NCBI GenBank assembly: GCA_949297305.1
Contig: CASFSG010000057.1
Span: 1 to 49,088 of the forward strand
Direction of reading: 5' to 3'
DNA length: 49,088 nucleotides
DNA from: an uncultured bacterium
GTDB lineage: Bacteria > Bacillota_I > Bacilli_A > RFN20 > CAG-826
Below are positions 29,058 to 37,225 of this stretch, one piece after another. A model generated the notes under the pieces. The model was given only the letters and a program-made list of their open reading frames with translations, was not told the DNA's origin and made no database searches. A program made the position numbers and the translations under genes. The stretch's first letter is position 1, and every line of letters starts with the position of its first letter.

Positions 29058-29081
29058 TTTACTTTACCTCTTTTTTGGTGG

Positions 29082-29152
29082 TTGGGGCGACTGGACTTGA
29101 ACCAGTGATCGCGAGTTCAGAGCCCGCTGCCTTACCACTTGGCTACGCCCCA
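29082..29152 (-). tRNA. tRNA-Gln (anticodon CUG)
   Basis: A full cloverleaf is visible on the minus strand: acceptor TGGGGCG/CGCCCCA, D arm GCCAAGTGGTAAGGC, anticodon loop CTCTGAA, and T arm with TTCAAGT. Encoded CCA follows at 29081-29079. The variable loop has 4 bases. It closely resembles the UUG isoacceptor 200 bp away, suggesting duplication and anticodon change. It is the last tRNA of the array. Confidence 0.93.
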
Positions 29153-29186
29153 AGGGGCTTATAATTTTAATTGATTGATTTTGTGG

Positions 29187-29271
29187 TGCCCAAGACCGGA
29201 CTTGAACCGGTATGCTATCAACTAGCGCAGGATTTTAAGTCCTGTGCGTCTACCTATTCCGCCACTTGGGC
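29187..29271 (-). tRNA. tRNA-Leu (anticodon UAA)
   Basis: Type II tRNA with acceptor GCCCAAG/CTTGGGC, D arm GGCGGAATAGGTAGACGC, anticodon loop CTTAAAA with UAA, a long variable arm, and T loop TTCAAGT. CCA is encoded (29186-29184). As a UNN-reading tRNA it is a plausible MiaA/MiaB substrate. Confidence 0.95.
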
Positions 29272-29279
29272 AAAGATGG

Positions 29280-29352
29280 TCTCCCGTAAACGATTCGAAC
29301 GTTCGACCCCTTGATTAAAAGTCAAGTGCTCTACCAACTGAGCTAACGGGAG
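29280..29352 (-). tRNA. tRNA-Lys (anticodon UUU)
   Basis: Acceptor CTCCCGT/ACGGGAG, D arm GCTCAGTTGGTAGAGC, anticodon loop CTTTTAA with UUU, and T loop TTCGAAT. CCA is encoded (29279-29277). The first base pair is C-G rather than the more common G-C. Confidence 0.95.
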
Positions 29353-29358
29353 ATGTGG

Positions 29359-29430
29359 TTGGGGTGACTGGACTTGAACCAGTGCATGATAGAGTCAAAG
29401 TCTATTGCCTTACCACTTGGCTACACCCCA
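29359..29430 (-). tRNA. tRNA-Gln (anticodon UUG)
   Basis: Acceptor TGGGGTG/CACCCCA, D arm GCCAAGTGGTAAGGC, anticodon loop CTTTGAC with UUG, T loop TTCAAGT and encoded CCA (29358-29356). Confidence 0.95.
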
Positions 29431-29444
29431 AGATGAGTGAATGG

Positions 29445-29525
29445 TGGAGGAGGGTGGATTTGAACCACCGAACCCGAAGGAACTGATTTACAGTCAGCCG
29501 CATTTGGCCACTTTGCTACTCCTCC
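29445..29525 (-). tRNA. tRNA-Tyr (anticodon GUA)
   Basis: Type II tRNA with acceptor GGAGGAG/CTCCTCC, anticodon loop CTGTAAA with GUA, a long variable arm (CCTTCGGG region), T loop TTCAAAT and encoded CCA (29444-29442). Confidence 0.95.
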
Positions 29526-29541
29526 ACATCGCTATTAATGG

Positions 29542-29614
29542 TGGATGTTGAGGGGCTCGAACCCCCGACCTCCGCCGTGTAAAGGCGATGCTCTCCCAGC
29601 TGAGCTAAACATCC
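29542..29614 (-). tRNA. tRNA-Val (anticodon UAC)
   Basis: Acceptor GGATGTT/AACATCC, D arm GCTCAGCTGGGAGAGC, anticodon loop TTTACAC with UAC, T loop TTCGAGC and encoded CCA (29541-29539). It is the first tRNA of the six-gene minus-strand array. Confidence 0.95.
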
Positions 29615-34792: not shown

Positions 34793-34904
34793 GTGTATCA
34801 AATTGTCTAGTTATATTTTTAAATATAAAGGCATCCATGAAATAGTTTATTGATATGTGCTTGAAATAGTTAACTATTTTAATCATTAGCAGATAATATG
34901 AATG

Positions 34905-35075
34905 CTTGTATAGTATCGCTTTAGACAAGGGACGCAAAGATATTGCAAAAAAATAATTAAACTTTGTGGTTTATAGTGACGAGAGTTTTTAACCAACAAT
35001 ATAATAAGTTGTTAGTATTAATTTTTTATCATTAAACATCATTTAACTCTTTATTGATATTAATTAACGATATGC
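34905..35075 (+). repeat. Left copy of a decayed direct repeat flanking the ATPase gene
   Basis: This non-coding stretch is similar, in the same orientation and spacing, to 36890-37060. Matching blocks are 34938-34950 with 36922-36934, 34955-34972 with 36936-36956, 34981-35002 with 36965-36986 (17 of 22 bases) and 35058-35071 with 37045-37058 (12 of 14). The rest of the gap between the MFS gene and the ATPase (34793-35335) holds a 16-bp palindrome, AAATAGTTAACTATTT (34864-34879), and no convincing gene. Confidence 0.6.
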
Positions 35076-35335
35076 AGTTGTTTTTATCAATTCGAATATA
35101 AAAAAGCTTGATAATTATCAACATATTAAGCTTATATTTCGTTTTGCAATTAGTAACCGCTTTAAATGACATCAAAACTAGAAAGCAAAAGCCTAAAATG
35201 AAATTTATTAATTTAATCTTCGTTCACTTTGGAAAATATTTCATTACGAAAAGAAATATTGTAATTTGGCATATTAATCCTACAAATATTTTTTATTCAA
35301 TATTTAATTAATCGGTTAGGGAAATATTTATGGTA

Positions 35336-36541
35336 TCAAGACAAAAGAAAGTCTATGATGTTGACAATTTTAATCCCATTTACATTGGTGATATAGGTCT
35401 TATCAGCGGTAATAATCGTCTTTTCATAGAAATCGTGTGTAAAGCGGAACGGGGCTATTTCTCGCTCCTGCGTCGCTTTATCAGCAAGCGTTTCAGTGAC
35501 TTGAAAATATCGTGTTTCCTCTTTATTTATGGCAACGAAGTCTATCTCTTTCGTGTCATTTTTACCAACGTAAACTTGATAGCCACGGCGAAGAAGTTCT
35601 AGATACACAACGTTCTCTATCGAATGGCCATAATTTTCTAGACTATATCCGACGATGGTATTTTTTAAACCTGTATCAGCGAGATAGTATTTTTCAAGTG
35701 ACTTTAAGACTTCCTTACCTTTGACATCATAACGGTTAGCGCGATAAATGATAAACGCATTTTCAAGCATTTCGAGAATATTGCCAACCGTGGCAGGTCG
35801 CAAAGCCGTATCGAGCTTTGCCTCGTTTACAATATATTTTGACATGCTGTTCGAAGAGGTTATGCTACCTACATTTCCACATAAGAAGGCATAGATACGT
35901 TTTAACAGATCAATGTCTTTAAGTTTGTTTCTTCCAAGTACATCCTTTAGAATGATCGTATCATAAATGCTAGATAAAAATGTTCTTATCGTCAATTCGT
36001 CCTGCGGTAAAGACAAAAGTTGCGGCATGCCGCCATATTTTAAGTAGTTATTAAAAAGTTCATCTCGACTTTTTCCCCTGTCTCGGTAATAGCTATAATA
36101 TTCTTTGAAAGATAGCGGTAGCATTTTTATTTCTACATATCTGCCGGATATTAAAGTCGCAAGTTCTGAGGAGAACAGATACGCATTGGAGCCTGTAACA
36201 TATATATCTGCATCGCATTCGAGCGAAAGCGAATTGATAGTTTTTTCCCAACCATTGACCTGCTGTATCTCATCAAAAAATAGATAATTCTTTTTGTCTA
36301 ATAAAATCTTTGCTGAAACCAAATCGTAGAGTTGCTTATAGGTGCGTATCGAGTCGTACTTCATCAGTTCAAAATTGATGTATTGAATCTGCTCGGGCGT
36401 AACGCCGCTATGTAGGAGCTCATCGCGAAACATTTCAAGTAATGTCGATTTTCCCGAACGGCGCAGCCCCGTAACGACTTTGATGATTTTGTTGTCTTTG
36501 AACGCTTTTAAGCGTTGCATGTACTCTGTTCTATATATCAT
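35336..36541 (-). CDS. AAA_14/DUF4143-family ATPase
   Basis: A 401-aa P-loop protein. Walker A is VVTGLRRSGKSTLLE (about residues 22-36), Walker B is NYLFFDEIQQVNGWEK (about 83-98), and a sensor-like TGSNAYLFSSEL follows. The C-terminal part (about 200-370) is the DUF4143 domain, ending with a restriction-like fold segment EIDFVA (about 340-345). These ATPases are patchily distributed and their function is unknown. ATG 36541 is preferred over the open frame to 36571 because of AAAGGA 10 bases upstream. The gene is visibly richer in G and C and has different codon use from its neighbours, suggesting transfer. It lies alone between decayed repeats beside a tRNA-Leu. Confidence 0.85.
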   Translation of the reverse strand: MIYRTEYMQRLKAFKDNKIIKVVTGLRRSGKSTLLEMFRDELLHSGVTPEQIQYINFELMKYDSIRTYKQLYDLVSAKILLDKKNYLFFDEIQQVNGWEKTINSLSLECDADIYVTGSNAYLFSSELATLISGRYVEIKMLPLSFKEYYSYYRDRGKSRDELFNNYLKYGGMPQLLSLPQDELTIRTFLSSIYDTIILKDVLGRNKLKDIDLLKRIYAFLCGNVGSITSSNSMSKYIVNEAKLDTALRPATVGNILEMLENAFIIYRANRYDVKGKEVLKSLEKYYLADTGLKNTIVGYSLENYGHSIENVVYLELLRRGYQVYVGKNDTKEIDFVAINKEETRYFQVTETLADKATQEREIAPFRFTHDFYEKTIITADKTYITNVNGIKIVNIIDFLLS

Positions 36542-36562
36542 ATAAGTTTTTCCTTTGTTTAA

Positions 36563-36592
36563 ATTATACACTTGAAATTATGAAAATGACAA
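36563..36592 (-). promoter_or_regulatory. Promoter of the ATPase gene
   Basis: On the minus strand TTGTCA (36587-36592) and a perfect TATAAT (36563-36568) are 18 bp apart, about 22 bases before the ATG. Confidence 0.65.
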
Positions 36593-36593
36593 T

Positions 36594-36619
36594 AGTTTTT
36601 ACTCTGTAGCGTAAAAACT
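36594..36619. repeat. Inverted repeat just upstream of the ATPase promoter
   Basis: AGTTTTTAC and GTAAAAACT are perfect 9-bp arms separated by 8 bases. It sits directly upstream of the -35 box and is a candidate operator. Confidence 0.45.
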
Positions 36620-36734
36620 TCCGAAAAAGTATAATTTTTTGCAACTTTTCTGCGTGAAAATAATATTGTTAAAACTTTCAATAATCGCATTTTAAAAAAA
36701 CTAAATAGTAAGTCAAGAATTTAAGAAAGTATTG

Positions 36735-36839
36735 ATGGTTTATTTTTTTAGTAAATATATGCAAGATTTAGTGGGGAGATGGTTGGCTAATATTTCGACT
36801 GAAACAAAAAATCAAATATTTCGAATTCGTAATGATTAA
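36735..36839 (+). other. Possible small ORF or gene remnant (34 codons)
   Basis: An ATG-started frame of 34 codons reads MVYFFSKYMQDL, then VGRWLANISTETKNQ and RIRND, ending in TAA. The composition looks protein-like and contains tryptophan, but there is no clear Shine-Dalgarno and I recognise no family. It may be a small gene, a fragment of a decayed one, or chance. The rest of 36620-36890 shows no other feature. Confidence 0.2.
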
Positions 36840-36889
36840 ATCGACACGACAAAAGTTTTTTACTCTTATTCTGATTTCAATTTTTTTGC

Positions 36890-37060
36890 GATAGCGATAT
36901 TTATGGATAACCTTATTCAGAAGATACTGCAAAATTAATTTAAACTTCGTGATTTTCCTTTGATGGGAGATTTAAACCCACGATATGCGATTAAGGTTTT
37001 TAATATAGGTTTTTGTCATCAAGTATAATTTGATTCTTAATGGGTGTTAGTTAACGATGT
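36890..37060 (+). repeat. Right copy of a decayed direct repeat flanking the ATPase gene
   Basis: Partner of the repeat at 34905-35075. From the AGATA-TGCAAAA block to the TTAACGAT block the span is about 134 bases in the left copy and 137 in the right, so the similarity is collinear. Neither copy contains an evident open frame, tRNA or terminator. The right copy ends about 45 bases from the tRNA-Leu terminator. Confidence 0.6.
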
Positions 37061-37095
37061 TTACACATAACGAGCACGAATTTGTAAGATTTAAT

Positions 37096-37128
37096 AAAAA
37101 ATAACCTATAATGTTTAACATTATAGGT
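37096..37128 (-). terminator. Terminator of tRNA-Leu(GAG)
   Basis: ACCTATAATGTT-T-AACATTATAGGT (37104-37128) is a 12-bp-arm palindrome followed on the minus strand by TATTTTTTATT. It lies 13 bases past the encoded CCA. Confidence 0.8.
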
Positions 37129-37143
37129 GTTTGTCAGAAATGG

Positions 37144-37225
37144 TGCGCCGAATGAGACTTGAACTCACACAGGTAACCCTATACGCCCCTCAAACGTACG
37201 CGTCTACCAATTCCGCCATCAGCGC
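37144..37225 (-). tRNA. tRNA-Leu (anticodon GAG)
   Basis: Type II tRNA on the minus strand with acceptor GCGCTGA/TCGGCGC, D arm GGCGGAATTGGTAGACGC, anticodon loop TTGAGGG with GAG, variable arm and T loop TTCAAGT. CCA is encoded (37143-37141). It lies 28 bases downstream of mgtE with its own promoter. Confidence 0.93.

Follow-up and report, generated by a model that had tools for sequence, protein, structure and literature searches.

IS66-family right ends beside a tRNA-Leu gene of an uncultured bacterium, and two IS66 clades placed past tRNA and tmRNA terminators

Background

A stretch of 49,088 nucleotides from an uncultured bacterium (the window) contains two similar non-coding segments on either side of an ATPase gene, next to a tRNA-Leu gene. 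The original prediction, made from the letters alone, proposed that these repeats may be the ends of a lost mobile element or a non-coding RNA family, and noted that a tRNA gene is a common integration site. The locus raises the question of what the repeats are and how they came to lie beside the tRNA gene.

Results and discussion

The repeat pair

Pairwise alignment places 34937-35071 collinearly with 36921-37058 (135 versus 138 bases), which bears out the predicted match in order and spacing over 134 and 137 bases. The alignment score of 74 is far above that of dinucleotide-shuffled sequence (mean 20.1, sd 2.8) and was reached by none of 1000 shuffles. Under a second scoring scheme, none of 817 other window segments reached the score of the pair. 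The right-hand copy is made up of the last ten transposase codons and a stop, a 3' non-coding part and a terminal inverted repeat (Table 1). The tip motif used for comparison, GTAAACGTCGTTAATTAACACC, was taken from the intact element L137, described below. The agreement of the two tips with this motif indicates that the repeats represent two right ends with a common orientation, the distal one being more decayed. R1, a sequence-only model built from ten copies, gives the distal copy 72.7 bits against 117.1 bits for the proximal copy, which is itself part of R1. Both window copies are end remnants, with no tnp genes beyond the last ten codons, and no IS66 left end was found in the patch around them. 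The claim that the patch has no integrase or transposase holds for the integrase, which is missing among the patch ORFs, and fails for the transposase, whose codons open the right-hand repeat.

Table 1. Features of the patch in window coordinates
Feature	Position	Strand	Evidence
IS66 right end, proximal to tRNA-Leu, probably younger	36910..37064	+	88% identity to C14 copy, E 4.9e-51
Last ten transposase codons and stop (PYSEDTAKLI, stop)	36911-36943	+	Reading frame opening the right-hand repeat
Outer tip, right terminal inverted repeat	37043..37064	-	20/22 bases of GTAAACGTCGTTAATTAACACC
IS66 right end, distal, probably older, more decayed	34936..35077	+	74% identity to C14 copy, E 1.1e-14
Tip of distal right end	35056-35077		15/22 bases of tip motif kept
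AAA_14/DUF4143 ATPase, compositionally foreign	35336..36541	-	Pfam AAA_14 4.6e-33, DUF4143 3.6e-18
9-bp perfect inverted repeat, upstream of ATPase gene	36594-36602 / 36611-36619	.	Sequence match
tRNA-Leu(gag), pointing into IS end	37141..37225	-	76 bp from its 3' end to IS tip
Terminator-like hairpin and T-run of tRNA-Leu	37096..37128	-	IS tip 31 bp past T-run

Relatives of the repeats

The genome of the window (1.22 Mb, 93 contigs) holds three further relatives of the pair, on contigs C14, C15 and C18. The C15 and C18 copies extend upstream into a transposase frame. A gene-cassette (attC) reading, made by eye, was abandoned when this frame appeared. The sister genome G001 has related copies in five places, and the one with a longer transposase stretch matches IS66 domains in Pfam (PF13817, 4.2e-10; PF03050, 8.9e-10). 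The IS66 domains on the C15 copy are weaker and still above the cut-offs. In genome G068, R1 also matches the sequence 3' of an intact transposase gene (23.8 bits). The intact G068 element (L137, G068:C129) has 2,489 bp between perfect 21-bp inverted repeats (21/21) and, by Pfam, the gene order TnpA (HTH_Tnp_1), TnpB_IS66 and TnpC (zf-IS66/DDE). Its TnpC matches PF03050 at 5.5e-65, along with PF13005 and PF13817, and among ORFs of at least 90 aa the element holds these three IS66 genes only. The G068 transposase has a 100% identity match on JAGBLL010000015.1, a bin from water-deer rumen. Intact relatives have the order tnpA-tnpB-tnpC, inverted repeats of 21-22 bp and 8-bp target duplications, so that the features of IS66 membership (transposase domains, gene order, inverted repeats and the 8-bp duplication) are all found in them. 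Each of the two window repeats represents the right end of an insertion sequence of the IS66 family. The proposed ends of a lost mobile element are thus supported by the identity of the repeats, by the additional genomic copies and by an empty site in a relative.

Several of the related loci have features of their own. A 259-aa gene lies directly past the IS66 end at tRNA-Phe on C14 (L039, 3296-4075) and in G001 (L043, 1783-2562), and has a weak match, below the cut-off, to an inactive restriction-endonuclease fold (PF22723). Contig C18 of the window's genome starts with a structured-looking stretch (L041, 1-160) that ends in a hairpin, precedes the IS66 remnant and has no Rfam family match. 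The C15 copy (L040, 600-1143) and G001:C1 (L044/L112) have the right IS junction and a DUF4143 gene in common. On the left side, C15 has tRNA-Glu whereas G001:C1 has a glycosidase-like gene, a difference that may reflect either a rearrangement between IS copies or a chimeric bin. L137 lies between an inward tRNA-Leu and an inward tRNA-Glu; the presence of tRNAs on both sides without a target duplication points to a rearranged or chimeric contig.

Placement beside tRNA and tmRNA genes

R1 has matches in 23 of the 224 genomes of the family. Of 45 places found, 44 were tested, a 45-base tandem stub on G001:C23 being left out, and the first 27 are taken as strong. A tRNA (13) or tmRNA (1) gene lies within 250 bp of 14 of these 27 right ends, which are not all independent (C14 and G001:C13 are orthologous; C15 and G001:C1 have a common junction). 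All 14 genes point inward and none outward. For the remaining 13, the visible end could be the one further from a tRNA: at C15 and G063:C13, an inward tRNA is present on the opposite side of the element. None of 27 control spots elsewhere in the genome, which are places of weak BLASTN matches and not random draws, gave this result; of 5095 non-coding positions in the window, 334 are at most 250 bp away on the 3' side of a tRNA. The six-tRNA cluster at 29079-29614 of the window has no IS66 end alongside it as judged by R1.

Searches with the G068 transposase gave matches in 47 of 279 genomes order-wide and 19 of 395 class-wide. From these, 78 loci were taken; not all matches were included (G231:C104, for example, was left out), and L219 is without a tblastn match. 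A tree of 48 TnpC sequences contains clade A (support 0.97) and clade B (support 1.0). An inward tRNA adjoins 11 of 19 testable copies in clade A, 5 of 8 in clade B (including one tmRNA) and none of 17 in the rest. Taken together, 16 of 27 testable copies of the two clades lie just 3' of an inward tRNA or tmRNA (Fisher 5e-5 against other IS66 lineages; some of the copies counted are related to each other, and the counts are thus not wholly independent). The 41 testable sides in both clades comprise 18 inward, no outward and 23 without a tRNA; a tRNA half at L247 is excluded from the clade counts. The other 11 copies have no adjoining tRNA in the sequence available. L162, L233 and L182 have both sides visible and no tRNA, and L165 forms the outer member of a tandem pair. 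The copies adjoin many different tRNA types. tmRNA is also used (G034:C43, L170), and L224 has a tmRNA nearby in the same arrangement. In two clades, then, the elements adjoin inward-pointing tRNA or tmRNA genes.

The distance from the tRNA end to the IS tip has a median of 87 bp, with 32 of 38 flanks at 60-125 bp and the window within this range; these distances were hand-picked from a scan of 51 loci, most already known to hold a tRNA. L137 is counted twice among them, and weak tips (e.g. L048, L149, L196, L207), one orthologous copy and inner cluster tRNAs were dropped. A hairpin and T-run separate the tRNA from the tip in 36 of 36 flanks, mostly at loci chosen for having a tRNA, and the tip lies a median of 45 bp past the T-run. 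These 36 flanks omit L186 and the tRNA-Leu side of L137, where no hairpin with a T-run was seen before the tip. A stricter terminator rule is satisfied by 9 of 14 tRNA copies and by none of the 13 non-tRNA right ends. Exact 8-bp duplications occur beside tRNA-Ala (L158), tRNA-Ser (L163), tRNA-Glu (L168) and tRNA-Phe (L187 and L232). Duplications matching at 8/8 bases are also present at L142, L247 and the tRNA-free L182, and no 8-bp target duplication was found at L137, L161 and some other loci. The usual position of the tip is about 87 bp from the tRNA end, beyond the terminator; where intact copies adjoin tRNA genes, they have exact 8-bp duplications and spare the tRNA unit. The suggested link between the patch and integration at a tRNA is borne out as to insertion beyond the terminator and is not supported as to the tRNA gene itself, the repeats not being copies of a tRNA end.

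The ATPase gene and the empty site

As predicted, one substantial gene lies between the repeats, and its product has both AAA_14 and DUF4143 domains. The gene is indeed rich in G and C (38.1% GC), and its GC3 of 40.5% is the highest among 40 window CDS (mean 25.7%, sd 4.0). The 9-bp inverted repeat noted beside it is present and perfect, and the patch does end at a tRNA-Leu gene (Table 1).

The same locus was located in two relatives through MgtE (88% identity in G001, 61% in G002). The order in G001 is MgtE, tRNA-Leu(gag), 252 bp and an MFS gene, with neither repeats nor ATPase, while the corresponding window interval (34793-37140) is 2,348 bp long. The comparison with relatives advised at the outset thus yields an empty site in the sister genome, with flanks too diverged from G001 to place the exact insertion borders. 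In G002 the next gene after the tRNA-Leu is related to the LemA-like ORF of the window (likeness judged by eye), and the ATPase is absent there. Its GC3 and its absence from the same place in G001 and G002 suggest that the ATPase arrived recently.

Two of four DUF4143 places in the window's genome adjoin IS66 ends, and most other DUF4143 genes of the genus have none. The ATPase family was considered as regular cargo and rejected, since seven further DUF4143 regions (G000, G001, G002) have neither a strong R1 match nor a tRNA; two weak R1 matches (E 0.02-0.03) occur at DUF4143 regions of G002. The ATPase may well have come separately or as a hitchhiker.

Origin of the arrangement

The repeats are, with high confidence, IS66 right ends inserted 3' of tRNA-Leu(gag) by a lineage that inserts beyond tRNA and tmRNA terminators with 8-bp duplications. 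Such an element would insert just past the terminator, in either orientation, with an 8-bp target duplication, and repeated use of one tRNA would push older copies outward. The window pair fits this outward push, as do tandem copies in G267 and a double tip beside tRNA-Val in G001, where the nearer copy is only a stub. Two insertion events at the same tRNA-Leu(gag) address most likely produced the window pair, with the older copy now further out and the copy nearer the tRNA-Leu presumably the younger.

The direct-orientation IS ends bracket a gene of foreign composition that is absent from the sister genome, and the frequency of IS66 ends at the DUF4143 places of the window's genome (2/4) might also suggest a composite transposon, in which the ATPase travelled as a single unit with an IS end on either side. 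This is unlikely given the unequal decay of the ends (72.7 versus 117.1 bits), the lack of a left end in the patch and the other DUF4143 genes of the genus that have no IS66 end. A composite transposon would have two complete or working IS copies with a target duplication around the whole; here right ends alone remain, and no target duplication is seen around the pair, whose flanks are too diverged from G001 for borders. The tRNA gene at the border of the patch could instead be the integration site of a lost tyrosine-recombinase island, with the repeats as attachment-site copies. There is hardly any chance of this, since the repeats are IS66 ends with transposase codons and not copies of the tRNA-Leu 3' end, copies are found at many tRNA types and bear 8-bp duplications, and the patch ORFs include no integrase. 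The non-coding RNA family of the original prediction agrees with the several intergenic copies of similar length and is likewise to be given almost no credence: the repeats have no Rfam match and fold no better than shuffles, a double change is seen in 1 of 14 consensus pairs, and the longer copies run on into the transposase frame.

The placement itself could be a matter of survival, with insertion anywhere and only the copies in harmless tRNA 3' flanks persisting in gene-dense genomes. Most family members do have small genomes (~1.0-1.8 Mb), and many window copies are decayed remnants. However, the IS66 lineages that fall in neither of the two clades, some of them present in the same genomes, give 0/17. 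The 3' flanks of protein genes should be equally safe and are far commoner, yet 0/13 non-tRNA right ends face a terminator. The narrow insertion distance and the same pattern in intact copies with exact target duplications also make this explanation very unlikely, and the pattern probably results from target choice and not from survival alone. Alternatively, intrinsic terminators in general could be recognized, tRNA genes merely having strong ones. The hairpin and T-run in all 36 flanks would fit, as would L142, which has a target duplication and lies just past a ProRS-like gene (named by eye) and its hairpin, where the contig ends. General terminator targeting is nevertheless decidedly unlikely, because tRNA and tmRNA genes are a small minority of transcription units and yet predominate, and because the strict rule finds an inward terminator at none of the 13 non-tRNA right ends.

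Source of the address

tRNA and tmRNA have the 3' half (T-arm side) in common, and the address is probably read from this half of the tRNA, with or without the terminator. The second copy in G394 (L247, G394:C1, ~484 kb) has the same TnpA and TnpB and no whole tRNA nearby. A 47-nt tRNA 3' half, reaching from the anticodon loop as far as CCA, lies 80 bp from its tip together with a terminator-like hairpin, and is probably the attachment-site leftover of another integrated element. If the L247 insertion came after the event that left the tRNA half, the address would lie in the 3' half or the terminator. L247 is the only case of a partial tRNA end beside a tRNA-free copy among 24 flanks scanned.

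A T-arm-like stretch (at least 10/11 bases) is present in 4 of 10 right ends and 0 of 9 left ends of clade A, in 1 of 10 clade B ends, in 0 of 6 other ends and in 5 of 327 window pieces. The mimicry was spotted post hoc and is a lead only. The stretch in the clade A right ends suggests that whichever protein binds these ends may recognize the T-arm of tRNA as well. A decayed tRNA inside the repeat was considered for the right window copy, which has a T-arm-like stretch, but was rejected for want of a tRNA model match. A clade-A-type TnpA, identified by similarity, occurs at 17 of 20 clade A, 0 of 8 clade B and 1 of 20 other loci. It was rejected as the sole selector because clade B, which is without it, also sits at tRNAs. 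It is quite possible, if somewhat short of probable, that the two clades read the tRNA/tmRNA 3' half with their own proteins, without a Tn7-type selector, and insert ~80-110 bp beyond it, past the terminator.

Comparison with known systems

IS66 elements are generally regarded as having little target preference, and what their TnpA and TnpB do is not well understood. The elements described here resemble the IS66 family (tnpA-tnpB-tnpC) in domains, gene layout, inverted repeats starting GTAA/GTAT and the 8-bp duplication, and differ in that two of the clades are strongly placed 3' of tRNA/tmRNA genes. IS66 membership is of a known kind; the tRNA-flank address is what sets these clades apart. 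No earlier report of IS66 targeting of tRNA flanks was found among titles and abstract openings in the open PMC literature, which is weak evidence of absence. Since lineages with a sharp address exist beside lineages without one, the questions of target preference and of what TnpA and TnpB do can be put directly to the test. With a short address and tRNA genes in every bacterium, the element could serve as a compact, gene-sparing insertion tool. Insertion at tRNA flanks may also partly explain the build-up of foreign genes there in these small gut genomes.

Integrase islands likewise make tRNA genes a hot spot for foreign genes. Their recombination takes place inside the tRNA 3' end, which becomes duplicated, whereas the IS66 clades leave the tRNA unit untouched. 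Group IIC introns insert just past intrinsic terminators by RNA-based retrohoming, with different enzymes and no known link to tRNA genes as such. Tn7-like transposons, including CAST I-D, use tRNA attachment sites (PMC10293859, PMC8649781), and CyCAST homing is placed ~30-33 nt past the tRNA (PMC10293859). Tn7-like elements also find a safe site on the downstream side of a tRNA gene that stays intact, but have dedicated TnsD/TniQ selectors and Tns proteins, where L137 codes for TnpA, TnpB and TnpC only, and the IS66 clades insert further out, past the terminator. A similar habit is seen in TRE3 and Skipper of social amoebae, which insert ~100 bp downstream of many kinds of tRNA gene in compact genomes (PMC5006619). 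These are eukaryotic retroelements tied to RNA polymerase III genes, and the element here is a bacterial DDE transposon without kinship to them. If the proposed targeting is true, the IS66 clades would do by cut-and-paste in bacteria what the elements homing on tRNA genes do in amoebae and yeast.
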